Source: Coriobacterium glomerans PW2 | Lineage (GTDB): Bacteria; Actinomycetota; Coriobacteriia; Coriobacteriales; Coriobacteriaceae | NCBI RefSeq assembly: GCF_000195315.1 | Contig: NC_015389.1 | Span: 1,798,001-1,862,000, forward strand | DNA length: 64,000 nucleotides | Direction: 5' to 3' | Shown: positions 1 to 17,971 of the stretch, one piece after another | Layout of the letters: every line of letters begins with the position of its first letter | Position numbering within the stretch: the stretch's first letter is position 1 | The notes under the pieces: model-generated | What the model saw: only the letters and a program-made list of their open reading frames with translations | The model's database searches: none | What the model was told of the DNA's origin: nothing | Program-made: the position numbers and the translations under genes

Positions 1-201
1 ACGAGCATCGTGACGCTGGGTGCGGGCGTGTCCGCGGTCAACAAGGACTTCGCCGGCTCGTTCAACAACCTGTCGATGCTGACGATCGCGATCATCGGCC
101 TGGCGCTGTCGATCCTGTACTACAAGGGCAACCAGGCCGCTCGGCTCGCCGTTGCCGCAACCGCCGACTCGAACGAGGAGGTCGAAGACGATGAGCTCTG
201 A
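1..201 (+). CDS. PTS mannose/fructose/sorbose family IIC component (3' end only)
   Basis: The frame is open from the first base and ends at 199-201, so only the last 66 residues are present. They comprise a membrane segment (MLTIAIIGLALSILYY) followed by an acidic cytoplasmic tail. The call rests on position: the next gene, which overlaps it by 11 bases, is a clear IID component, and IIC-IID is the fixed order in mannose-family PTS operons. IIC forms the sugar channel with IID. The substrate cannot be told from this fragment. Confidence 0.8.
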   Translation, partial: TSIVTLGAGVSAVNKDFAGSFNNLSMLTIAIIGLALSILYYKGNQAARLAVAATADSNEEVEDDEL

Positions 202-1054
202 TGACATCCGCATCGGGCGGGACGACCCCGAGCCCGATTCGCACAAGACGACGGGCTACCGGCTCACGCAAGAGGATCTGCGGCAGATCAACCGCAGGAG
301 CCTGCCGCTGTTCCAGGTGGGCTGGAACTACGAGCGCATGCAGGGATCGGGCTACCTGTGGACCATCCTGCCGCAGCTGCGCAAGATCTACGGGGACGGC
401 ACGCCCGAGCTCAAGGAGGCCATGCGCACCCACGCGCAGTTCTTCAACACCTCGAACTTCCTGAACACCATCGTCACCGGCATCGATCTCGCCGTCGAGG
501 AGAAGGAGGGCCTGGAGGGCCTGCGGACCGCAGCCGGCATCAAGACCGGTCTCATGGGACCGTTCGCCTCGATCGGCGACTCGATCTTCGGATCGCTCCT
601 GCCGACGATCTTCGGTGCGCTTGCCGCCAACATGGCGATCAACGGCAATCCGATCGGCATCCTCATCTGGGTGGTCGTCAACATCTTCGTCGACTGGTTC
701 CGCTGCCGCCAGACCCGCTTCGCCTACGAGCAGGGGGTCAAGCTCGTGACCACGATGAGCGACAAGCTCAACGCGCTCACCGGCGCGGCGACCGTGCTCG
801 GCGTGTTCATGGTCGGCGCCCTGGTCGCCTCCAACGTGAACATCGTGCTGGCCGTAAAGCCCATGATCGGCGAGGTTCCCCTGAACCTGCAGAACATCTG
901 CGACATGATCATGCCCAAGCTCGTGCCGGTGGTGCTGGTGGGCTTCGTGTACTGGATGCTCGGCAAGAAGGGGGTGACCTCGACCAAGGCGATCTTCATC
1001 GTCTTGATCCTGGCCGTGATCCTGGGTGGCTTCGGTATCATCGCAAAGGGATGA
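191..1054 (+). CDS. PTS mannose/fructose/sorbose family IID component
   Basis: A 287-residue integral membrane subunit of a mannose-family PTS; with IIC it carries the sugar across the membrane for phosphorylation by IIB. Family features visible are the N-terminal NRRSLPLFQVGWNYERMQGSG block, the ELKEAMRTHAQFFNTSNFL block and the LMGPFASIGDSIFGSLLPT block, with hydrophobic segments in the second half. The ATG at 191 is preferred because GAGGAGG lies about 9 bases upstream; an upstream in-frame start at 152 would add 13 residues inside IIC. It overlaps IIC by 11 bases, implying translational coupling. A terminator follows 42 bases after the stop, so this closes the operon. Length is normal for the family. 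Confidence 0.93.
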   Translation: MSSDDIRIGRDDPEPDSHKTTGYRLTQEDLRQINRRSLPLFQVGWNYERMQGSGYLWTILPQLRKIYGDGTPELKEAMRTHAQFFNTSNFLNTIVTGIDLAVEEKEGLEGLRTAAGIKTGLMGPFASIGDSIFGSLLPTIFGALAANMAINGNPIGILIWVVVNIFVDWFRCRQTRFAYEQGVKLVTTMSDKLNALTGAATVLGVFMVGALVASNVNIVLAVKPMIGEVPLNLQNICDMIMPKLVPVVLVGFVYWMLGKKGVTSTKAIFIVLILAVILGGFGIIAKG

Positions 1055-5907: not shown

Positions 5908-6546
5908 CTATCCGGCGCGTACCTCATCGATGATCCTGCGAACCTCGGCCGCGTTCGCTGCGATCTCAGCTGCGCTGCCTTCCGTGAGCAGGCCACCGAT
6001 GCCGCAGCAGTCGATTCCAGCGCGGACCCACTCAGCGAGGTTTTCGAGATTGATGCCCCCTGAAGCCATGAGCGGCATCCACGGCGTGGGGGTCTTGAAG
6101 ATCGAGGCGAGCTTGGGCCCATAGAAGTTCGAGATCGGGAAGCACTTGATAAACGCCGCGCCTATCTCAAGGGCATGCATGGCTTCGGTCACCGTTGTGC
6201 ATCCCGGTGCATAGGGAATCTGGTAGCGATTGCACAGAGTGGCGACTTCGTTGGAGAGACAATTTGCAACGACGAATTCTGCACCCGCGATGGTGGCGAG
6301 TCGTGCCGTTGGAGCATCCATGACGGTGCCGGCACCCACGACTATCTGCCTCCCAAACCGCTCTTTTACGCCTGCGATCACCTCACCGGCATTCGGCAGA
6401 GTGTAGCTTATTTCAAGAACATTCACACCACCTCGAAGACAGCCTTCGGCAATTTCGCAAGCGCGATCCACCGAAGGTGTTCGAACCACTGCAAATGCAC
6501 AGCACTCATATATGCTCTTTGAAATAACAGCTTTTTCCATAGCCAT
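5908..6546 (-). CDS. KDPG/KHG aldolase-like class I aldolase
   Basis: A 212-residue member of the 2-dehydro-3-deoxy-6-phosphogluconate aldolase family, which reversibly cleaves a 2-keto-3-deoxy acid to pyruvate and an aldehyde through a Schiff-base Lys. Seen: VLEIS near residue 40 (general-base Glu), GAGTVMDA, and AFIKCFPISNFYGPK with the expected Schiff-base Lys, then ASGGIN. The Eda segment TLRT, whose Arg contacts substrate, is here SYTLPN, and Eda's FFPAE is CFPIS, so the substrate probably differs from KDPG. The ATG at 6546 has GGAG eight bases upstream. It is the last gene of the operon, 31 bases after the DapA-like aldolase. Confidence 0.85.
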   Translation of the reverse strand: MAMEKAVISKSIYECCAFAVVRTPSVDRACEIAEGCLRGGVNVLEISYTLPNAGEVIAGVKERFGRQIVVGAGTVMDAPTARLATIAGAEFVVANCLSNEVATLCNRYQIPYAPGCTTVTEAMHALEIGAAFIKCFPISNFYGPKLASIFKTPTPWMPLMASGGINLENLAEWVRAGIDCCGIGGLLTEGSAAEIAANAAEVRRIIDEVRAG

Positions 6547-6577
6547 AGCAAAGACTCCAATCGAAATTGCCTCATAT

Positions 6578-7474
6578 TCAAATGTGTTCGATTCCATAGT
6601 GATCAAGCATTGACATGATGGATGCGTCAAGAAATCCGGAGAGATCGGAAACGGGTTCACGCGCTGGACCAACTGGAATACCGGCTAGCTCAAGCGATCT
6701 CTTTAGCACTGCCGGTGTGGATCCCTTATGCAAGATATCGCGCAAGGGCTCGATCTCAGCTTGAAGCATTTTTGCAGATTCAGTCTTACCGGACTCAAGT
6801 GCGCTAAACAATCCAACTACGACATCCGTGATCAGATTTGCTGTTCCAGCGATAGCCCCTGTCGCGCCCATCGCATAACCCTTGGAAATCTTCCCATCTG
6901 ATCCAACCAGCACATCCATGTCATTGCCATATGCAGCCTCTATATATCCTGCAAGGTTCTCCACATTTCCGGAGCTGTCCTTGATGCCTTTGATATTTTC
7001 GATCGGCGCAATTTTCGACACAACTTCAGCAGACAGGTTCATTCCGGTTGATTTAGGAATGTTATACAAAATGATAGGTATTTTGACACTTGCAGCCACC
7101 CGCTCATAATAACGCACGATTTCAGAATCGCTGATCTGTGTGAAATACGGATTGACCACGGAAAGCGCATCGGCTCCCAACGCCTCAGCCTCCCGTGAAA
7201 GATTGCATGCCTCGTTCGTCGAACATGCTCCGGTTCCTACATACACTGGCAGGCGACCACCAACTTTCTGAACTACATGCTTTGTGAATCGGATTCTTTC
7301 TTCATGGGAACAGAGATGAAATTCTCCATTGCTTCCAAAAATAAAAATCCCCGAAACACCTGATCCGATTAGCTTTTCTATGAGCTGATCAGCTGCGCAG
7401 AAATTGATGGACTGCGCACTGTCTCGTTTGAATGGCGTTACCATGGGAACGATTACACCGTGAAAGGTTGACAT
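6578..7474 (-). CDS. DapA/NAL superfamily aldolase (KDG-type or related)
   Basis: A 298-residue (beta/alpha)8 class I aldolase of the dihydrodipicolinate synthase / N-acetylneuraminate lyase family. Visible family elements are GVIVPMVTPF, the pyruvate carboxylate loop GSNGEF (GxxGE), the catalytic Tyr in ILYNIPKSTG, and the Schiff-base Lys in KGIKDSSG. True DapA would sit with lysine biosynthesis genes; here it is in a PTS catabolic operon next to a second pyruvate aldolase, so a role in cleaving a keto-deoxy sugar acid is more likely. The ATG at 7474 has GGAGGAG four bases upstream; an in-frame ATG at 7492 lacks one. It is 42 bases after IIA. Confidence 0.88.
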   Translation of the reverse strand: MSTFHGVIVPMVTPFKRDSAQSINFCAADQLIEKLIGSGVSGIFIFGSNGEFHLCSHEERIRFTKHVVQKVGGRLPVYVGTGACSTNEACNLSREAEALGADALSVVNPYFTQISDSEIVRYYERVAASVKIPIILYNIPKSTGMNLSAEVVSKIAPIENIKGIKDSSGNVENLAGYIEAAYGNDMDVLVGSDGKISKGYAMGATGAIAGTANLITDVVVGLFSALESGKTESAKMLQAEIEPLRDILHKGSTPAVLKRSLELAGIPVGPAREPVSDLSGFLDASIMSMLDHYGIEHI

Positions 7475-7516
7475 CGATCTCCTCCGATTCATTTTGGATG
7501 GTCCCCGCACCAGTTT

Positions 7517-7924
7517 CTACGAAGATGCGAGGACTCGATTTGTATGGACCCCGCTCTCGCGCAATACGCTAAGTGCATATTCTGCAAGTTCCCCAGCAGT
7601 GCGATCGTCTCGCCCGGATGAAACACTTGCATACAATTCAATTAACATGGGGAGATTAACTCCTGATACAACGCTGCACCCATACTGCCTGCTCAGCGCT
7701 GAGAATACATTGCAGGGAGTACCCCCGAAAAGATCGGTCAGCACAAGAATCTGATCGTCTTCGACTGATTTTAAAATCGATTCCGCATCGCGCTTGAAGT
7801 CCTCGAATGACATTCCGGGTAAAAGTGATACGTTGGAAACATCTTCAAGCGTGCCGAATATCATTTTCGCCGAGTTGATGAGCTCCCGGCCCAACCTTCC
7901 ATGGGCACCAATAATGATCTTCAC
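7517..7924 (-). CDS. PTS mannose/sorbose family IIA component
   Basis: A 135-residue cytoplasmic phosphocarrier. The phosphorylated His is in the N-terminal GAHGRLG, as in ManX-type IIA, and LVLTDLFGGTPCNVF is the second signature. It takes phosphate from HPr and passes it to the separately encoded IIB. The IIA gene is placed after the dehydrogenase rather than beside IIB, an unusual order for this family. The start coincides with the family N-terminus. Confidence 0.93.
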   Translation of the reverse strand: MKIIIGAHGRLGRELINSAKMIFGTLEDVSNVSLLPGMSFEDFKRDAESILKSVEDDQILVLTDLFGGTPCNVFSALSRQYGCSVVSGVNLPMLIELYASVSSGRDDRTAGELAEYALSVLRESGVHTNRVLASS

Positions 7925-8013
7925 TTCTTACCTCCAAATTAGGATAGTTGAAATGATCGATGAGCGCAGCTGGCCGACAGACGTGATAAGGTGTCTTGCA
8001 TTTCTCCCATCGA

Positions 8014-8949
8014 TCATTGCTGCAATCCGAGATGCTCCAAGATATAATTCGTCGAGATCAGACACGTGCGTCTTTCCGCTTCGCGTGTTCGCGAGGCGAT
8101 ATGAGAGGTAAGTAGAAAGTTGTCGAGCGCCAAAAGGGGGCTTTCCGGACGAGGAGGCTCTGAAGAGTAGACGTCAAAGCAAGCCGAGCGAATGGCACCA
8201 CGTTTCAAAGCTTCATAGAGGGCTGTCTCGTCTACAATCCCGCCTCGTGAGGCATTCAATAAGCATGCGTCACGTTTCATATGATCGAATTGCTGTGTTG
8301 AAATCATATCTCTTGTACTGTCCAAGAGCGGAACGTGAAGAGATACGTAATCTGACATCTCGAGTAGCTCATCTAGGCTGGCGATGGTGCATTCATTCTC
8401 CTGCGCTGTTTTCGGATCGATCGTAAACGCGTCATAGATTATGACGTGCATGCCAATCCCAGTCGCAATTTTGGCGAGAGATTTTCCAATAGCTCCGAAG
8501 CCTATGATTCCTAAGCTCTTTCCATGAAGTTCAGCACCGGTTGGCTTGCACCAACCACCCGCCTTGACGTCCCGAATAGTGGGATAGAGGTTTTTCGCAT
8601 CGGCAAACATCAAGGCAGCGACATGCTCTGCAACCGAAAGCGAGTTCGAGCCCACAGTGCGGCCAACATAGATACCTCGTTGCTTGGCATATGCGAGATC
8701 GATGTTATCGGTACCGACTCCAAATTTGCAGATTACTTTTAATTTCTGACATTGTTTCATAACCGCACGGTCACAGATGTCGACCCCTATGATGATCGCG
8801 TCCGAATCTTTGGCCATCTCAAGAAAATTGTCGGCACTGTAGGGATTTCCAGTTGTATTGCACTGCACACTCAACCCAAGAGATTCCATGCGAGCAATTT
8901 CATCCGTACCATATCTTGCGAATCCGCGCGGTGTGATGAGCACATTCAT
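8014..8949 (-). CDS. D-isomer-specific 2-hydroxyacid dehydrogenase
   Basis: A 311-residue NAD-dependent dehydrogenase of the phosphoglycerate/lactate dehydrogenase family. Seen: FGVGTDNIDL, the Rossmann loop GIIGFGAIGKSLA, the catalytic Arg in NASRGGIVDE, Glu in VYSSEPP and His in LTSHIASRTREA. It interconverts a 2-hydroxy acid and a 2-oxo acid. In this operon it may reduce or oxidise an acid intermediate before aldol cleavage; the substrate is not predictable from the sequence. The ATG at 8949 has GGAG about 7 bases upstream, and the upstream in-frame ATG overlaps that site. It lies between IID and IIA of the PTS, so it is probably pathway-specific. Confidence 0.9.
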   Translation of the reverse strand: MNVLITPRGFARYGTDEIARMESLGLSVQCNTTGNPYSADNFLEMAKDSDAIIIGVDICDRAVMKQCQKLKVICKFGVGTDNIDLAYAKQRGIYVGRTVGSNSLSVAEHVAALMFADAKNLYPTIRDVKAGGWCKPTGAELHGKSLGIIGFGAIGKSLAKIATGIGMHVIIYDAFTIDPKTAQENECTIASLDELLEMSDYVSLHVPLLDSTRDMISTQQFDHMKRDACLLNASRGGIVDETALYEALKRGAIRSACFDVYSSEPPRPESPLLALDNFLLTSHIASRTREAERRTCLISTNYILEHLGLQQ

Positions 8950-8967
8950 GTGTAAGCTCCTCATTAA

Positions 8968-9891
8968 TTAGATGATGCCGAGACCCGTCAGACAAATCGC
9001 GATAACCATTGTGTACGCGATCAAATTCAGATATTTGGGACCTCTCTTCGTTATATAGAGATACATCCCCATGACCACGCAGAACGGAAGCAAACATGGC
9101 AAAATGCCGTCAAGAATGCTCTGCACCGTTGTAAATTTTCCTCCACCGCTATCGAATTGCAGGACTGTGCTCACTTTGACATACGATGCGGAAAGGCAAC
9201 CGATCATGAAAATCGCCATGATGCTTGCAGCATCGATGACCTTTTTGATAGTCCCTGAATGCAGAATCTCGGTAACCGCACCTCGTCCGAGGGTATATCC
9301 TTGCCGGAACAAGAACCAAGACCATCCTGTTGACCACGCCAGATAAATCAGGCTCGGGATGAAGGCTGCGATAATGTTGCCCTGCAACGCCATTGGAACG
9401 AAAATTGCCAGAGGAATCGTGCCGACGATACCTTGGTCAACTGCATCGCCGATGCCAGCCAATGGCCCCATGAGTCCGAGTTTGATGGATTGGATCATCT
9501 CAGGCGAAATGCCTTCAGCACCATGTGCCCGCTGTTCCTCGAGTGATATAACAATACCGTGAATTACACTGCCCCAATCACAATTTGTATTAAACATCGA
9601 GGTATGCCGATGAAATGCTTCTTTGAGTTCTTTTGGATCATTCTTATATAGCTTGCGAATTATTTTGTTCATCGAGTAGCCGAAAGCAAGGGCTTGCATA
9701 CGATCGAAACTCACGGGCACCTCAACGGCAAGACACCATTTCCACCACGCTTTCAATAGATCTATTTTGGTGATAGCAGGCACACTTTCCGAATTTAGAA
9801 CCTGCTTGATCGTCTCCTGAGTCGCCTTCTGATTAAATCCTTCAGTTGTTTGGTTCTGCTCTTTATCTTCTGGGTCTCTACCCGTAACCAT
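8968..9891 (-). CDS. PTS mannose/sorbose family IID component
   Basis: A 307-residue integral membrane subunit. A polar N-terminus of about 40 residues precedes the family blocks FDRMQALAFGYSMNKIIRKL, ELKEAFHRHTSMFNTNCDWG, IKLGLMGPLAGIGDAVDQG and GYTLGRGAVTEIL. Several membrane segments follow, and the chain ends in a hydrophobic helix (YTMVIAICLTGLGII). Start and IIC stop overlap by one base (TAATG), so IIC and IID are translationally coupled. Confidence 0.94.
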   Translation of the reverse strand: MVTGRDPEDKEQNQTTEGFNQKATQETIKQVLNSESVPAITKIDLLKAWWKWCLAVEVPVSFDRMQALAFGYSMNKIIRKLYKNDPKELKEAFHRHTSMFNTNCDWGSVIHGIVISLEEQRAHGAEGISPEMIQSIKLGLMGPLAGIGDAVDQGIVGTIPLAIFVPMALQGNIIAAFIPSLIYLAWSTGWSWFLFRQGYTLGRGAVTEILHSGTIKKVIDAASIMAIFMIGCLSASYVKVSTVLQFDSGGGKFTTVQSILDGILPCLLPFCVVMGMYLYITKRGPKYLNLIAYTMVIAICLTGLGII

Positions 9892-10640
9892 TATTGTGCG
9901 ACCTCCTCATGCTGAACAAATAGATTGGCGATCAGCGCGAAACACAATGCGAAAATTGCACCAGTGAGCATTGAAAATCCTGTGATTGCAAACATAAAAA
10001 AGCCAACGACAAAAAAGGGCAGGTACTGTTTTTTCCCCATGATGACAAGGGTGAGTGCAAAGCCCAGAGCCGGAAGCATGTTTCCTGCATTGGCGAGTCC
10101 ATTCATAATCCAAGTTGGAATAACATTTATTACCGCCTGTACCGCAGAAGGGCCTAGAAGCGTTGCGATGAAAACGGGGACGAAATACACAATGAAGTTC
10201 ATAGCCCAAGGCAACGCGAAAGAGAACACGGAGACCAAGTCGTATTTCTCATCCTCGACCAATGCGTCGACACGAGTTGAGAATAATGAGTTGATCGTTC
10301 TGCGAATATTGTTGAGAAGTACTCCGAGTACACCAAACGGAACAGCGATCGCAACTGCGGTGCCAGCGTCAAGATGATTGATGATCGCAACCGGAATCGC
10401 GATGCAAGCTGCCAATCCCTGATCGGATGGAATGTTGCCCCCTGCCTCTATGCCACCCATATACATAAGTTGAATGGTGGCCCCCACGACCAGTCCAATC
10501 GGCACATCTCCGTAGATCAGACCGATGACAACTCCAATTACCACCGGCTTTCGGAACGCAAACGAAAAGTAGTAGAACGCACGACCCATAGAAATCCAAT
10601 ATGTAATACCAACGAGCGCAGCGCTGATAACGGAACCCAT
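9891..10640 (-). CDS. PTS mannose/sorbose family IIC component
   Basis: A 249-residue polytopic membrane protein forming the substrate channel with IID. Recognised by SMGRAFYYFSFAFRKPVVIG, GDVPIGLVVGATIQLMYMGG and GGNIPSDQGLAACIAIPVAI, all typical of sorbose/mannose IIC. It is 23 bases downstream of IIB. This region is more AT-rich than the window average, as is the whole operon, compatible with a transferred catabolic cassette. Confidence 0.94.
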   Translation of the reverse strand: MGSVISAALVGITYWISMGRAFYYFSFAFRKPVVIGVVIGLIYGDVPIGLVVGATIQLMYMGGIEAGGNIPSDQGLAACIAIPVAIINHLDAGTAVAIAVPFGVLGVLLNNIRRTINSLFSTRVDALVEDEKYDLVSVFSFALPWAMNFIVYFVPVFIATLLGPSAVQAVINVIPTWIMNGLANAGNMLPALGFALTLVIMGKKQYLPFFVVGFFMFAITGFSMLTGAIFALCFALIANLFVQHEEVAQ

Positions 10641-10663
10641 TTCCTTCCCTCCTTGAGAACGTC

Positions 10664-11146
10664 CTAGAACTTGGCTGAAATCTCTTCAAGTGTCGCCTTC
10701 GAGTAATCTGCGGTCGTCTGGAAATAGACTTCTATACCGGTACTTGCAATCGAAACCAGTGTGTCAAGATCGGCTTGGTCGAGCGTGATCGCGTGGTGCA
10801 CGACCTTCCTGTCTGCAGCTCCTCCCAAGCCTCCGACTTGGACGGAATCGAGTTTCACGCCGGCTTTGAGCGCGCGCTGGAGGGATTCCACGTTCTTGAA
10901 CAGCAGCATTACGCTACTTCTCTCAAATTCTCCTTGCTGTTGCGCCTGAGCAGCCTCTTCGCAGCTCAGAATTTTGATCCTGACACCCTTGGGTGCGGCC
11001 ATTTTAAAGACATCCTGCATGAACTCATCATGCCGTAACTCCTCGTCAATAGTGATAATCTCGTTGATGCCCAAGATGCGCGTCCAGTTTGTGATCACCT
11101 GCCCGTGAATTAACCGAAAATCAATTCGTGCCAGTTTTACACTCAT
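10664..11146 (-). CDS. PTS mannose/sorbose family IIB component
   Basis: A 160-residue cytoplasmic subunit that phosphorylates the incoming sugar. The active-site His lies in ARIDFRLIHGQVITNW at residue 14. The C-terminal half contains the usual VGGLGG loop. It is separated from IIA by the IIC, IID and dehydrogenase genes. Confidence 0.94.
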   Translation of the reverse strand: MSVKLARIDFRLIHGQVITNWTRILGINEIITIDEELRHDEFMQDVFKMAAPKGVRIKILSCEEAAQAQQQGEFERSSVMLLFKNVESLQRALKAGVKLDSVQVGGLGGAADRKVVHHAITLDQADLDTLVSIASTGIEVYFQTTADYSKATLEEISAKF

Positions 11147-11219
11147 AATTGCCTCCAGCTCATCGCTTGCTCATACGCACTGGTAAAACCTCGTGAACAA
11201 TCCAAGATGAGTGTTCAAT

Positions 11220-11858
11220 TCACGTGAGGGAGTCCTCCGTACTCCGTATCGATTGGCCGAGACTTCCACCTGGATGCCACGTGACATAGGATTGAGGGGT
11301 GAGGCCATAAGCCCTCTGCAGCAAAATAGACAGACACTGCAGCTCGATGATTTCAGCAAGAACTGAAACACGCGGAGGCTTGTTCATGTAATCACCCTCT
11401 TGTGAAACACTCGCTATAAGCTCGACCTCGCCAACACGTGCGAGCCACGAAGAAGGGTTGCCCGTCACGGATATGATGTGAGCACCGTTTGCAATTAGTG
11501 TTGAAACCGTTGCCTTGAGCTCAGCCGTTTCTCCGCTGTTCGAAATCGCTATTACTATGTCACCGGGTCGGACCTGTCCTGAACTGCCGTGCACCGCTTC
11601 TGTTCCATGAAGCTCGTAGGCTGGGGTACCAGTCGAGGAGAACAGCGATGCCACATATCCAGCTACATGCGCTGGTTTTCCGATGCCGGTCACGTGAACG
11701 CGACACCCTGCTCGCTCCGCCTCTCTGATTAGCAGTTTTGCACTCGAAAGCTGGTTATAGTCAATTCTTTCTGCAAACGCAGATATCTCTCGCCTCGCAA
11801 TGGATAGGAACTCTTCCACTTCATTTCGGTCCGTCGTGTTCAATTCCGTGTCTGACAT
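11220..11858 (-). CDS. SIS-domain phosphosugar isomerase-like protein
   Basis: A 212-residue single SIS-domain protein of the KpsF/GutQ or 6-phospho-3-hexuloisomerase type. Seen: VHVTGIGKPAHVAGYVASLF, SSTGTPAYELHGTEAVHG, the phosphosugar loop AISNSGETAEL and the C-terminal WHPGGSLGQS typical of KpsF-like isomerases. It probably interconverts ketose and aldose phosphates made by the PTS in this operon. It is the first gene, with AAGGA about 8 bases before the ATG. One of three operator-like palindromes ends 14 bases upstream of the start codon. Confidence 0.88.
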   Translation of the reverse strand: MSDTELNTTDRNEVEEFLSIARREISAFAERIDYNQLSSAKLLIREAERAGCRVHVTGIGKPAHVAGYVASLFSSTGTPAYELHGTEAVHGSSGQVRPGDIVIAISNSGETAELKATVSTLIANGAHIISVTGNPSSWLARVGEVELIASVSQEGDYMNKPPRVSVLAEIIELQCLSILLQRAYGLTPQSYVTWHPGGSLGQSIRSTEDSLT

Positions 11859-11871
11859 ATCATTCCTTTCA

Positions 11872-11889
11872 AGATTAAACGTTTTATCA
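11872..11889. promoter_or_regulatory. Operator copy 1 (proximal)
   Basis: An 18-bp imperfect palindrome centred on CG: AGATTAAA-CG-TTTTATCA. It shares the CGTTTTATCA half exactly with two further copies upstream, and lies in the leader just before the SIS gene ribosome site. Confidence 0.7.
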
Positions 11890-11952: not shown

Positions 11953-11970
11953 TGATCAATCGTTTTATCA
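11953..11970. promoter_or_regulatory. Operator copy 2
   Basis: TGATCAAT-CG-TTTTATCA, 6 of 8 arm positions symmetric; its centre is 81 bases upstream of copy 1. A CG-centred AT-rich palindrome is the usual form of LacI-family sites, and a LacI-family gene is adjacent. Confidence 0.75.
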
Positions 11971-11993: not shown

Positions 11994-12011
11994 TGATTTA
12001 ACGTTTTATCA
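11994..12011. promoter_or_regulatory. Operator copy 3 (distal)
   Basis: TGATTTAA-CG-TTTTATCA; its centre is 41 bases upstream of copy 2. Spacings of 81 and 41 are near whole numbers of helical turns, suggesting same-face binding and possible looping (inference). Confidence 0.75.
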
Positions 12012-12095: not shown

Positions 12096-13142
12096 TCACT
12101 CAGTGAGAGTTTTCACGCTCTCGCCTTCTAGCAGTTCCGGCATGATAGCTTCATCGTTGAACTCGACTTGCAGATCTTTGTTCGTGTTTTCGATACGGTC
12201 GTGCAACATTGCAGTTGCGCGATGGCACAGATGCTCAATATCGCGTTTTATGATAGTCAATCGAGGTTTATAAATCTGATACGCAATCTCTTCGTCAAAG
12301 CCAACGACAGATATATCATCAGGAATCCGTCGATTGTGATCCTGTATACAACGCACAGCACCGAGCGCTATACTATCGCTTGTTGCAAGCACCGCGGAAA
12401 TGTCGGTCCTGATCAGCTTTTCCATTGCTTTATAGCTTTCACCGATATCATAATCACTCTCGGCGCAATACTCTGGGTTTGACGCTATCCCTGCCTCGGC
12501 GAGAGCACGGCGATAACCATCGTAGCGCAAGGCACCGCTTTCGGATGTGACCGTATTTACAATGCATCCGATCTTCGTGTGTCCACGTTCGATTAAACAG
12601 CAAGTTGCACGATGCGCACCAGCTTCCTCATCGAAACGGATTGAATCGCATTCTATTGCAGGGAGATAGCGGCCTACCAGCACATAGGGAACATGCAGAT
12701 CACAAAGCTGCCTGCCGACTTCAGAATCCCCCACCGCTTCGCTGCTGCTAACAAAAAAGAGCCCGTCAATACCACGTCGTGCAAGCATATTCAGTAAGCG
12801 ACAGTCATCTTCAGACCGATTTTTTGAACCAGTGATGAACAGAGCATATCCGAGTTCCCGACACTCCTCTTCCAAGTTCTTAGCAATCTTCGAGTAAAAG
12901 TGACTGGCGATATTCGGAACAATGAGACCCAGCGTCATCGTTTGTTGCGTCTTCAAACTTCTCGCACTGTAGTTTGGCGAGTAGTTGAGCTCGTGGGCTG
13001 CCTCCTTGATTCGCTTGCGATTCTCATCAGTGATTCGACAGGGTTTTTCGTTTAAGACCAGCGACACAGCAGTTACTGACATTCCAACTTTCGCAGCGAT
13101 ATCCTTGATGGTCGTACAGCTTTTCATGCTCGCCCTTGTCAT
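12096..13142 (-). CDS. LacI family transcriptional regulator
   Basis: A 348-residue repressor. The N-terminal HTH reads CTTIKDIAAKVGMSVTAVSL, with hinge NYSPNYSARSLKTQQT, followed by a periplasmic-binding-like effector domain (LGLIVPNIASHFYSKIAKNL; LLNMLARRGIDGLFFVSSSE; DISVVGFDEEIAYQIYKPRL). The ATG at 13142 has GAGGTG seven bases upstream; ATG 13127 directly before the HTH is an alternative. It lies immediately upstream of, and in the same direction as, the SIS/PTS/aldolase operon. Three similar palindromes fill the gap between them, so it is the probable repressor of that operon, responding to a phosphorylated intermediate. Confidence 0.93.
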   Translation of the reverse strand: MTRASMKSCTTIKDIAAKVGMSVTAVSLVLNEKPCRITDENRKRIKEAAHELNYSPNYSARSLKTQQTMTLGLIVPNIASHFYSKIAKNLEEECRELGYALFITGSKNRSEDDCRLLNMLARRGIDGLFFVSSSEAVGDSEVGRQLCDLHVPYVLVGRYLPAIECDSIRFDEEAGAHRATCCLIERGHTKIGCIVNTVTSESGALRYDGYRRALAEAGIASNPEYCAESDYDIGESYKAMEKLIRTDISAVLATSDSIALGAVRCIQDHNRRIPDDISVVGFDEEIAYQIYKPRLTIIKRDIEHLCHRATAMLHDRIENTNKDLQVEFNDEAIMPELLEGESVKTLTE

Positions 13143-13308
13143 CGACGGACACCTCGTTAGGCCTCCGAAGTATTCACTTATCTGTAGTTTAGCAGTTGGA
13201 ATCGATAAATCAGCCGAAAGCTCTGATGGTCCAATACACAAGAGTCATCGTTATGCACATACAATTCGAAGGTGTAACGTAACGAGACCCACTTTTTGAT
13301 GCACCGGC

Positions 13309-14802: not shown

Positions 14803-15672
14803 CTAGAAGACCTCTTCTGATACGCCCTTATCCTCTCCCAGCGACTTCCACAAAAGACCGGCTCTCGCCTTGAAGTTGGGCACATCGGAGCATAGCAGCA
14901 AGAAGATGACCTCAACGATGAAGTTGATCGAGTTATGCGAAAACGGCAGATCTCCCGAGAGCACCTTATCGCGTGTCGCCGCATGCAGCACGCAGGACGA
15001 GCGACGCGCCAGCGGCGAATCGGGTACGTTCGTGATCACGATCGTGGGAGTCTCCGAATCAAGCGCATTGTCCATCATCTTGTTCAGCCGTTTCGAGTGG
15101 CCGGATTTCGAGATGAAAACCAGGACATCACGCCCGGTGAGCGACATAGAGGAAAGCATCATGGCCTCGGTGGTGGGGGCGCACTGCGCGCGAAGACCCA
15201 ACTCGGAAAGAAGAAATGACGCCGAGAGACCGGCGGGGATCGTGTTGCCCACAGCCGCGAACACGATGGAGACCGCGCCTTCGATGAGCCGAACCGCATG
15301 CACAAGCTCACCCTCATCGATGAGGTCGAGCGTGTCCAAAAGCTCCCGTTTCTTCGCCAAGAGGACCGTCTCCATGGCAGCACGCGGCGCATCCACAGAG
15401 ATGACCTGCGATGCCATCGAAGCGCCTGCGCCCGATCCGTTCTCGCGCAGCAGGGCATCGCGCAGATCAGAGAAGCTCTCGTATCCGAGATGGCGAACGA
15501 ACCGCGACACCGTCGCCGCAGATGTTCTGCTCTCGGACGCTATCTCGCGTGTCGTCATCGTCGGGACGTCGGTCTGCTTCGCGAGCACGAAATCCGCAAT
15601 ATGCCGTTCGCGATCGCTCAAGCGATCGTAGAGTGTGCAGATCTCGTTGATGACGCTGCCTTTTCGCTGCAT
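14803..15672 (-). CDS. RpiR family regulator (HTH plus SIS domain)
   Basis: A 289-residue regulator. Residues 1-80 are the HTH_6 domain (LSDRERHIADFVLAKQ, TTREIASESRTSAATVSRFV). Residues about 110-270 are a SIS phosphosugar-sensing domain (FAAVGNTIPAGLSASFLLSE; VLVFISKSGHSKRLNKMM). It is adjacent to the fructose-type PTS/aldolase operon, separated from it by a strong terminator, and is the nearest candidate regulator of that operon's paired dyads near 18931-19046. AAGGG precedes the ATG by about 8 bases. Confidence 0.92.
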   Translation of the reverse strand: MQRKGSVINEICTLYDRLSDRERHIADFVLAKQTDVPTMTTREIASESRTSAATVSRFVRHLGYESFSDLRDALLRENGSGAGASMASQVISVDAPRAAMETVLLAKKRELLDTLDLIDEGELVHAVRLIEGAVSIVFAAVGNTIPAGLSASFLLSELGLRAQCAPTTEAMMLSSMSLTGRDVLVFISKSGHSKRLNKMMDNALDSETPTIVITNVPDSPLARRSSCVLHAATRDKVLSGDLPFSHNSINFIVEVIFLLLCSDVPNFKARAGLLWKSLGEDKGVSEEVF

Positions 15673-15781
15673 GGCACAACCCTTTCAAGTTCTCCTACGT
15701 CATGATAGCAACGAACGCAGCTGTACGCCTCGCCGTTGGCAAAGCATGGGCATTCGGCGACAGAGACGCCAAAGAATGAGC

Positions 15782-15809
15782 GAAAAAGGGCTCCATGGAG
15801 CCCTTTTTC
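15782..15809. terminator. Perfect palindromic bidirectional terminator
   Basis: A 28-base perfect palindrome: GAAAAAGGGCTCC (15782-15794), AT centre, and GGAGCCCTTTTTC. Both strands give a GC-rich stem followed by T5. It lies downstream of the minus-strand aldolase gene and insulates it from the RpiR gene. Confidence 0.9.
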
Positions 15810-15870
15810 ATCTCGCATAGCATCCTATGAGCTAGGAGGGCGCGGGCCACAGCCCCACCGAATCACTCAG

Positions 15871-16773
15871 TCACTCCTGAGTCTGACGCCACTGAGGCAC
15901 CACCGGCTCACGGAAGAATCTGGCCGCGCCTACGCAACCGAATAGCTCCATCTTCTGCTTGATGACCGCTTTTCCGGCGTCGATGCATGCGGGGAAGATA
16001 TTGTTCGGATCCCAGCCGGAATTCTCCTGTGCAAGTACCTCGCGAGCTTTCAAGAAGAAGGCGCTCTTGTAGTCGGAGGAGATATTCACCTTTTGGATAC
16101 CGATGCGCACCGCCTCGGCGATCTCCGCATCTGGATTGCCCGAACCGCCATGCAAGACCAAGGGGATATCGATGACCTCGAGGATCGAGCGAAGCACATC
16201 CATGCGGAGCCTCGGTGTAACGCCTTTGGGATACAGGCCGTGGCAGGTGCCGATCGCGATCGCAAGCGTGTCAACGCCCGTGCGCTCCACAAAGGTCTTC
16301 GCATCCGTTGGATCAGTGTAGCTGACCTCGCTCATGCCGCCCTCTATCGTGGCTCCGGTGTTGCCGATGGTTCCCAGCTCACCTTCGACGGAGACGCCGA
16401 TCATATGACAGACGTCAACGACCTCGCGCGTCTTGGCGATGTTGTCCGCGAGCGGCAGCAGCGATCCGTCTATCATGACCGAGGTGAAGCCACAGTGGAC
16501 GGCCCTCATGATGCTCTCGATCGAGTCACCGTGGTCCATATGGATGACAAAGGGAACCGGACTGTTCGAGCAACGTGCGATCACGTATTTCAAGAACTCA
16601 TCGCGACAGTATTCTAACTCGGTGGGATGCAGCGCAACGATCGCCGGCGCATCCTGGGCCTCGGCCGTTTCGACGACGGTGCGCACGAGGTTGGATTCAG
16701 AGACGTTGAACGCCCCTACTGCGAAATGCTTCTCCTTGGCGACTCCAAGCATCTGCGTCATATTAACAAGCAT
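15871..16773 (-). CDS. Class II ketose-bisphosphate aldolase (FBA/tagatose-bisphosphate type)
   Basis: A 300-residue zinc-dependent aldolase that cleaves fructose- or tagatose-1,6-bisphosphate to DHAP and glyceraldehyde-3-phosphate. Seen: FAVGAFNVSESNLVRTVVET, the zinc/catalytic segment VIHMDHGDS, VEGELGTIG with the metal-binding Glu, a conserved His in GTCHGLYP, and the phosphate loop LVLHGGSG with NISSDYK. The family (GatY/KbaY versus FbaA) cannot be resolved by eye. It is the last gene of the PTS operon; no dedicated kinase is adjacent, so a housekeeping phosphofructokinase would have to supply the bisphosphate. AGGAG precedes the ATG. Confidence 0.9.
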   Translation of the reverse strand: MLVNMTQMLGVAKEKHFAVGAFNVSESNLVRTVVETAEAQDAPAIVALHPTELEYCRDEFLKYVIARCSNSPVPFVIHMDHGDSIESIMRAVHCGFTSVMIDGSLLPLADNIAKTREVVDVCHMIGVSVEGELGTIGNTGATIEGGMSEVSYTDPTDAKTFVERTGVDTLAIAIGTCHGLYPKGVTPRLRMDVLRSILEVIDIPLVLHGGSGNPDAEIAEAVRIGIQKVNISSDYKSAFFLKAREVLAQENSGWDPNNIFPACIDAGKAVIKQKMELFGCVGAARFFREPVVPQWRQTQE

Positions 16774-16876
16774 GCTAGATCACTCCTTTTTGCAAGATAC
16801 GTCTAATTGCCCATATTGAGCCGCGCGGATGATGCGCACCTCCGATGCGCAACCGCTGCGAGGTGAGCGCTTGAAC

Positions 16877-17971
16877 CTACGAGAGACTGAAGGACGACAG
16901 ATCCACCTCCTGCTCATCCGCATCGGGTTCTTCGAGATCATTGATCTCATGCGGATCGAGACGTTTTTTGACGAGCACGAGAAGCAGCGCGGACACAGCG
17001 GATCCGCAGAGCAGAGCAACGACGGCCATGATCGGATTCGTCATGGCGGGAATGACGAAGACTCCACCGGAGGGAACCATGGACTCGACACCTGAAGCGA
17101 ATGCGATCGCACCGCATATTCCGCAACCGATCGATGTGCTGAACACTGTTCGGATGATGTCGTTCATGGCGATCGGAATGACGCCTTCTGAGATCATGCA
17201 GACGCCCATCGGAAATGCAATGCCGATATTATCCTGTTCTGTCTTTTTGAAGATCGGCTTGCCGACAAACTTAGACAGCAACAGGGCGATCGCAACAGCA
17301 AACGGGGGAACCATCGCAGCGAGCACCTTGATTCCCTCTGGTCCGTACACCCCTTCGAGCATCAAACCATCGCAAATGAGATTGGGAACCTTCGATATCG
17401 GTCCGCCGTAATCGAGGCAGCCAAGCCAGCCGATGATGAATCCATATGCGACCTTGGCGTTCTGATCGAGTCCATTGATAAAACTCGTGAGCGCCTGGGT
17501 GAGCCATGTGATGGGCGTACCGAGCACGAAGTACATGAGCAATCCGCCAACGATCGCCGAAACCGTGGGGATGATCATCATAGGCATGAGAGCTTCTGCC
17601 CATTTGGGAACCTTTACATAGTTCTCGATCATGAGACAGATATAACCTACGAGATAACCTCCGATCATACCACCCAAAAACCCTGCGCCCAGAAATGATG
17701 CGATCTGACCCATGAGAAAGCCGGGAGCGATACCTGGGCGATCTGCAATGGAATAGGCGATGTAGCCCGCGATAAACGAGGGCAGCAGCCCCATGCCGAG
17801 CACGCCCAGCGAGGTGAGGGCACTTGGAATCGTCAGCTCGTCAACATCTTTGACCACCTGGCCACCGGTCAGGTTGCCGATCGCGATCAGAAGGCCGGAG
17901 GCGACCACAAGCGGCAGCATGTAAGAGATCGCTGTCAATGCATGCTTTTTGAGCTGCAGCTTTTTTAGCAT
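16877..17971 (-). CDS. PTS fructose family IIC component
   Basis: A 364-residue polytopic membrane permease of the fructose/mannitol PTS family. Family blocks: HALTAISYMLPLVVASGLLI near the N-terminus, IADRPGIAPGFLMGQIASFL-like loop, GFLGGMIGGYLVGYI and the re-entrant-loop region GCLDYGGPISKVPN. The acidic tail (EEPDADEQEVDLSS) is probably cytoplasmic. Unlike FruA, the IIB domain is a separate protein encoded 80 bases upstream; that gap shows nothing else. Confidence 0.93.
   Translation of the reverse strand: MLKKLQLKKHALTAISYMLPLVVASGLLIAIGNLTGGQVVKDVDELTIPSALTSLGVLGMGLLPSFIAGYIAYSIADRPGIAPGFLMGQIASFLGAGFLGGMIGGYLVGYICLMIENYVKVPKWAEALMPMMIIPTVSAIVGGLLMYFVLGTPITWLTQALTSFINGLDQNAKVAYGFIIGWLGCLDYGGPISKVPNLICDGLMLEGVYGPEGIKVLAAMVPPFAVAIALLLSKFVGKPIFKKTEQDNIGIAFPMGVCMISEGVIPIAMNDIIRTVFSTSIGCGICGAIAFASGVESMVPSGGVFVIPAMTNPIMAVVALLCGSAVSALLLVLVKKRLDPHEINDLEEPDADEQEVDLSSFSLS

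Follow-up and report, generated by a model that had tools for sequence, protein, structure and literature searches.

Which compound is degraded by an operon that couples a sugar phosphotransferase system (PTS) to two pyruvate aldolases and encodes neither a kinase nor a dehydratase? The question is raised by a 64,000-nucleotide stretch of Coriobacterium glomerans PW2 (contig NC_015389.1, positions 1,798,001 to 1,862,000; hereafter the window), from a host genome that is a single contig of 2.1 Mb. Eight co-directional genes at 5908-11858 on the minus strand look like an undescribed route for a 2-keto-3-deoxy sugar acid in a Gram-positive bacterium. We infer that the acid is 3-deoxy-D-manno-octulosonate (KDO). 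In this plausible, if not quite probable, reading the PTS would import KDO, an aldolase would cleave its phosphorylated form to pyruvate and D-arabinose 5-phosphate (A5P), and a SIS-domain isomerase would turn A5P into ribulose 5-phosphate.

The operon and its enzymes

All eight genes are open reading frames (ORFs) in the ORF list of the window. They are transcribed in the order isomerase, IIB, IIC, IID, D-2-hydroxyacid dehydrogenase (HADH), IIA, DapA-family protein and KDPG/KHG-family (2-keto-3-deoxy-6-phosphogluconate/2-keto-4-hydroxyglutarate) aldolase.

11220..11858, minus strand: SIS-domain sugar-phosphate isomerase, KpsF/GutQ-like, predicted A5P isomerase (PF01380)
10664..11146, minus strand: mannose-type PTS IIB (PF03830, E 3.6e-42)
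9891..10640, minus strand: mannose-type PTS IIC (PF03609, E 9.5e-71)
8968..9891, minus strand: mannose-type PTS IID (PF03613, E 5.2e-84)
8014..8964, minus strand: HADH, likely start near 8949 (PF02826/PF00389)
7517..7924, minus strand: mannose-type PTS IIA (PF03610, E 2.4e-22)
6578..7510, minus strand: DapA-family pyruvate aldolase, likely start near 7474 (PF00701, E 7.8e-70)
5908..6672, minus strand: KDPG/KHG-family aldolase, likely start near 6546 (PF01081, E 2.4e-31)

The true starts of the KDPG aldolase, the DapA-type protein and HADH probably lie within their ORFs. Every protein exceeds a Pfam gathering cut-off (SIS, PTSIIB_sorb, EII-Sor, EIID-AGA, 2-Hacid_dh, EIIA-man, DHDPS and Aldolase), and the mannose-type PTS is complete, with IIA, IIB, IIC and IID domains all above the gathering score. 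ORFs and Pfam thus agree with the gene content given in a preliminary description of this DNA. The absence of a kinase and a dehydratase, also claimed there, was borne out: neither is among the eight genes, and the ILVD/EDD family is missing from the host genome (0/1), all 14 control genomes being positive (14/14).

The isomerase is closest to KpsF, GutQ and KdsD, and its best solved relative is 5uqi, which we take to be the demonstrated A5P isomerase c3406. It has 212 residues and lacks the tandem CBS domains (PF01380 only); c3406 is equally short at 198 residues. Alignment with KdsD and c3406 showed that K59, H88, E111, E152 and H193 of KdsD, presumably its catalytic residues, are all identical in the window protein. 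Residues and relatives both favour A5P isomerase as its function.

The DapA-type protein keeps the Schiff-base Lys. It lacks the Arg of dihydrodipicolinate synthase (DHDPS), reading YNIPKSTG against YNVPSRTG in E. coli DapA, and it has GSNGE where E. coli DapA has GTTGE; Arg138 and the GTTGE motif are what we take to be the DHDPS hallmarks. Its score against TIGR00674, 189.4 bits, is under the cut-off of 206.15. A role in lysine synthesis was rejected on the Arg138 position and this score; the genome holds two other DapA-family genes. The N-acetylneuraminate lyase cut-offs were also failed, with 119.3 of 382 bits for TIGR00683 and 153.2 of 281 bits for PRK04147.

The KDPG-type aldolase (109.1 bits against 27.8 for PF01081) aligns with E. 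coli Eda and keeps its catalytic Glu and Schiff-base Lys. It is under all NCBIfam curated cut-offs for named equivalogs or subfamilies, the best being PRK06552 (196 of 238 bits). Its SYTLPN loop had been described as an altered substrate loop; the loop proved ordinary, solved Thermotoga-type KDPG aldolases having ITFTVPDA there. In HADH a GFGAIG nucleotide motif is followed by Asp, and the alignment showed the Arg, Glu and His positions that we take to be catalytic in 2-hydroxyacid dehydrogenases.

Genomic contexts of the isomerase

The preliminary description had proposed a genome-neighbourhood analysis as a check. Fifty non-duplicate SIS loci outside the window were sorted into classes of our own (cited by L-numbers; L105 was dropped as a repeat of L020). 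A search of the taxonomic class found the isomerase in 19 of 296 genomes, the host's own and 18 more, the latter all from a different family (f2) within the order; 15 of these 18 matches were extended to loci, and three of eight plasmid records (L047-L049) were included. Types A and B below make up the 34 PTS loci among the 50.

Seven loci, type A, carry a mannose-type PTS, HADH, the isomerase and the DapA-type aldolase, with a PucR-type regulator (PF13556 in L026) and a second IIB-like gene. The KDPG aldolase is close by in six of the seven, and is divergent in L094 and L097. Four of these loci (L094, L096-L098) came from HADH queries, so that the HADH linkage of type A is partly selection. 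Type B, with 27 loci, combines an ascorbate-family PTS (the IIC of L013 scored 446.8 bits, the curated cut-off being 380) with isomerase, DapA-type and KDPG aldolase, often under a BglG/PRD or DeoR-like regulator. Its members include a Clostridioides difficile plasmid record, Enterococcus plasmids, Propionispira, Pectinatus, Megamonas and coriobacterial relatives. The Clostridium intestinale genome carries both a type A (L026) and a type B (L106) operon. A conserved protein of about 200 residues is encoded directly upstream of the isomerase in coriobacterial type B loci (L051, 9243-9917, where it has no Pfam match; similar in L055-L057).

Thirteen loci, type C, have a ribokinase-like PfkB kinase (11/13; 294.0 bits against TIGR02152, cut-off 299.65), an RbsD/FucU-type protein or a GH172/DUF2961 glycoside hydrolase (GH) family protein, and often ABC transporters. 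The operon's aldolases are absent from them; L015, L016, L021 and L107 contain distant members of the DapA family at 25-31% identity. Three loci were left unclassed: L063, where the isomerase lies beside a transaldolase-like protein, and L061 (9715-10611) and L065, where a IIB domain is fused in frame with the isomerase.

Of the 34 PTS loci, 33 have the DapA-type aldolase, the one exception being cut by a contig end, and 31 have the KDPG-type aldolase. The PfkB kinase is found in none (0/34), counting any match of 150 bits or more on the same strand within 8 kb, or up to the contig end where that came sooner. Because the two contexts are nearly mutually exclusive, the kinase and the PTS with its aldolases look, from gene content, like alternative suppliers of one intermediate, A5P. 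Across Bacillota and Coriobacteriia the triad of isomerase, DapA-type and KDPG aldolase is found together with either of two unrelated PTS types. The operon is no chance cluster, since its mannose-type PTS set recurs in seven loci and the triad occurs with the other PTS in most of the 27.

What points to A5P as the intermediate is the company kept by two kinase-type loci. GH116 proteins of L110 and L022 matched the exo-beta-D-arabinofuranosidase 8ic6 with 536 bits (next structure 83 bits) and 392 bits (next structure 45 bits), respectively; the scan covered only these two loci, picked because they had been noticed. GH172/DUF2961 proteins are present in both. The GH172 protein of L018 is not discriminating, with 259.5 bits for a fructofuranosidase and 257.5 bits for the Dysgonomonas-type entry 8ah3. 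In L110 the isomerase gene comes after ABC transporter genes. In L022 (8918-10570) a ribokinase-like kinase is fused to the isomerase, a candidate bifunctional D-arabinose kinase/A5P isomerase. The published D-arabinan locus of Microbacterium likewise combines GH172 and GH116 with putative genes for an isomerase and a kinase (PMC10509167). The isomerase subfamily is best read as an A5P isomerase because two kinase-type loci carry these D-arabinofuranosidase relatives. Type C is best read as a pathway in which free D-arabinose is phosphorylated to A5P by the kinase and then converted to ribulose 5-phosphate by the isomerase.

In the isomerase tree (48 rows) the kinase-associated clade, which includes one further locus, has support of 100/99, and several PTS-associated lineages have both PTS types interspersed within them. 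The window isomerase, DapA-type and KDPG aldolases each fall among type B enzymes from coriobacteria (support 97/81, 100 and 99). For the PTS and HADH the resemblance is to Bacillota type A loci, with 69-74% identity for IIC and about 57-63% for HADH. The window operon thus appears to be a mosaic of a coriobacterial triad and a PTS/HADH cassette like that of Bacillota. Type B loci also stand among type A rows elsewhere, L017 in the isomerase tree and L047, L106 and L109 in the KDPG tree. Most simply, these patterns are read as an exchange of PTS types around a conserved enzyme triad, and both forms would therefore feed related chemistry.

KDO as the proposed substrate, and its rivals

In the proposed route, the mannose-type PTS would import a 3-deoxy-2-ulosonic acid, most likely KDO, and phosphorylate it at uptake to KDO-8-phosphate. 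The DapA-type or the KDPG-type aldolase would split this into pyruvate and A5P. The isomerase is then predicted, with strong support from comparative context, to convert A5P to D-ribulose 5-phosphate, which would enter the pentose phosphate pathway. HADH is probably responsible for an interconversion of 2-hydroxy and 2-keto acids, at the level of either the compound taken up or one of the products of cleavage. With phosphorylation supplied by the PTS, the route would do without a kinase, and a substrate that is a 2-keto-3-deoxy acid from the start would make a dehydratase unnecessary. Cleavage of KDO-8-phosphate by an aldolase gives A5P and pyruvate; the same pair would come from its C4 epimer.

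Two further observations favour KDO. The other PTS type belongs to the ascorbate family, and ascorbate is likewise an acidic sugar. In Megamonas (L009) a YhcH/NanQ-family protein directly follows the isomerase (PF04074, 149.9 bits; sialate anomerase equivalog, 123.2 bits against a cut-off of 160). It fits a cyclic ulosonic acid because the family includes a sialate anomerase that opens the ulosonic acid ring for its aldolase (PMC8141875). The literature searched, C. difficile included, yielded no KDO catabolic pathway, PTS route for KDO or homologous operon. The wider claim, that PTS-fed KDO catabolism via KDO-8-phosphate and a dedicated isomerase has a core recurring in Bacillota and Coriobacteriia with interchangeable PTS, is put forward a little more hesitantly than the reading of the window operon itself.

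Several points weigh against KDO. The isomerase scored 117.6 bits against TIGR00393 (model positions 2-152 of 268), short of the curated cut-off of 203.7. No KDO-specific neighbour gene was found in the loci studied, and L061, L063 and L065 have none of these aldolase kinds nearby. Two, sometimes three, pyruvate aldolases exceed the needs of one substrate, and HADH is superfluous for KDO cleavage. Related HADH and KDPG aldolase pairs without the isomerase occur in L095, L100, L101, L102, L103 and L104, and the host genome itself has an operon (L129, 4707-9814) with mannose-type PTS, HADH, KDPG aldolase and a HAD-type hydrolase, and with neither the isomerase nor a DapA-type gene. The choice of KDO also rests on a point of background: KDO-8-phosphate is the only natural phosphorylated 2-keto-3-deoxy acid known to yield A5P and pyruvate.

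The recurrence of HADH and KDPG aldolase pairs without the isomerase suggests a role for HADH adjacent to the aldolase reaction, such as oxidation of a 3-deoxy-aldonate phosphate. The PTS might then import a 3-deoxy-aldonic acid (such as metasaccharinic acid or a reduced ulosonate), HADH would oxidise the phosphorylated acid at C2, a KDPG- or DapA-type aldolase would split the product and the isomerase would take the aldose phosphate. This would give HADH a step, with a dehydratase likewise unneeded. The set of mannose-type PTS, HADH and KDPG aldolase that L095, L102, L103 and the host's L129 carry without the isomerase, and L100 in a looser arrangement, fits such a scheme. So does the restriction of HADH to the mannose-type PTS form: none of this kind lies on the same strand in type B, except a 30% match 4 kb off in L106. 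Against it, no natural 3-deoxy-octonate that yields A5P is known to us, and the pairs bring varied extra genes (YdjC-like, MtlD-like, transketolase-like), so that their shared role may differ. The scheme is unlikely. In L095 (PF04794) and L102 (by eye) ChbG/YdjC-like proteins stand beside the mannose-type PTS, KDPG aldolase and HADH; they are perhaps deacetylases for an acylated substrate.

Slightly less probable still is another ulosonic acid or a mixture, such as 2-keto-3-deoxygluconate (KDG), 2-keto-3-deoxynononate (KDN), 3-deoxy-lyxo-heptulosarate (DHA) or glycero-talo-octulosonate (Ko), with the aldolases acting on different substrates and the isomerase on another aldose phosphate besides or instead of A5P. 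It would account for two or three aldolase families in one operon, an HpaI-type aldolase being present as well in 8 of the 27 type B loci. The closest relatives of HADH are phosphoglycerate, glyoxylate and hydroxypyruvate reductases, and cleavage in the Ko case would yield hydroxypyruvate, which HADH could reduce to glycerate. However, the nearest kinase-type relatives of the isomerase lie in D-arabinose contexts, which speaks for A5P rather than a hexose or triose phosphate.

The kinase loci tie the isomerase subfamily to D-arabinose, and the PTS might accordingly import free D-arabinose or an arabinoside as A5P for conversion to ribulose 5-phosphate, the aldolases serving another function. 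This is improbable, since the DapA-type aldolase accompanies the isomerase in nearly every PTS locus, across two PTS families, and the trees of the window isomerase, DapA-type and KDPG proteins agree, which places them in the same pathway. That the isomerase makes A5P for a KDO-like or arabinose-containing glycan, as KpsF, KdsD and GutQ-type enzymes do in Gram-negatives, is scarcely credible: the gene shares its operon with PTS and aldolase genes and a LacI regulator, and the genome has no KDO8P synthase (0/1), so that A5P is not meant for lipopolysaccharide (LPS) synthesis.

Regulation, comparison with known systems, and meaning

Directly upstream of the operon lie a regulator gene and a set of repeats.

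12096..13241, minus strand: LacI-family regulator, likely start 13127-13142 (PF00356/PF13377)
11873-11888, 11954-11969 and 11995-12010, minus strand: three operator-like direct repeats GATAAAACGWTWRATC (repeat search)

The three copies lie in the gap between the LacI and isomerase genes, and perfect matches are confined to this gap across the 2.1-Mb genome. With up to three mismatches, six matches were found on both strands of the window against a mean of 0.34 in shuffled windows. The LacI protein is probably a local repressor, and would govern the operon through these three upstream operators. A wider regulon was considered and rejected: there is no perfect operator elsewhere, the only one-mismatch site falls inside a coding frame, one of the two-mismatch sites was checked, and neither of these two indicates a linked function.

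Other features of the window may be noted. A second sugar cluster at 14803-17971 (minus strand) has, by its ORF translations, a SIS-domain RpiR-type regulator, a class II fructose/tagatose bisphosphate (FBP/TBP)-type aldolase and a fructose-type PTS IIC. Near the window edge (152-1054, plus strand), a gene for a mannose-type PTS IID apparently belongs to another PTS operon. Rfam and tRNA scans of the 64-kb window gave no matches.

The nearest system in kind is c3405-c3410 of E. coli CFT073 (PAI-metV), which likewise has a PTS, a CBS-less KpsF-type isomerase (35.5% identical to the window protein) and a D-2-hydroxyacid dehydrogenase. Its PTS is different (EIIC, PRD antiterminator), and it has a MalY/PatB protein and no aldolase; because it lacks aldolases, it is a relative in kind and another pathway. 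The c3406 protein is reportedly a demonstrated A5P isomerase, its carbohydrate unknown. The D-arabinan locus of Microbacterium arabinogalactanolyticum (GH183, GH172, GH116) is comparable in that GH172 and GH116 D-arabinofuranosidase relatives stand beside two relatives of the window isomerase from the kinase-type clade, but it handles free D-arabinose derived from a polysaccharide, with kinase and isomerase and no aldolase, an architecture unlike that of the window operon.

Sialic acid catabolism (NanA/NanQ/NanK/NanE) likewise uses a DapA-family aldolase to split a 3-deoxy-ulosonic acid into pyruvate and an aldose, and one relative of the window operon (L009) has a NanQ-family protein. That route relies on a symporter, with kinase and epimerase as separate enzymes, whereas the window has a PTS and the isomerase. 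The D-glucosaminate (Dga) pathway of Salmonella also combines a mannose-type PTS with a KDPG-family aldolase, but it requires a pyridoxal phosphate (PLP)-dependent ammonia-lyase, and Pfam placed none of the eight proteins in a PLP-enzyme family. The Entner-Doudoroff pathway is ruled out by the lack of ILVD/EDD (phosphogluconate dehydratase) in the genome. All three of these pathways, like lysine synthesis, fall short on a defining feature that was tested.

The preliminary description had found no match to a described route, and that judgement holds for the glucosaminate, Entner-Doudoroff and lysine pathways and for the literature searched. It had suggested a new pathway for a sugar acid or an amino-sugar derivative. 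The conserved triad and the misfit of every pathway tested favour the sugar acid; the amino-sugar derivative is not supported, as the operon has no deacetylase, deaminase or ammonia-lyase.

KDO forms the link between lipid A and the remainder of LPS and is also found in plant rhamnogalacturonan II, making it a plausible gut food from bacterial or plant cell walls. Clostridium tetani reportedly has a Gram-positive A5P isomerase in a bacterium without LPS, its role said to be unexplained. If true, the KDO route would give a testable reason for A5P isomerases in such bacteria. A fresh test of the carbohydrate used by the related operon of uropathogenic E. coli would be worthwhile, and the conserved triad of isomerase, DapA-type and KDPG-type aldolase is a marker by which the pathway may be tracked in genomes.

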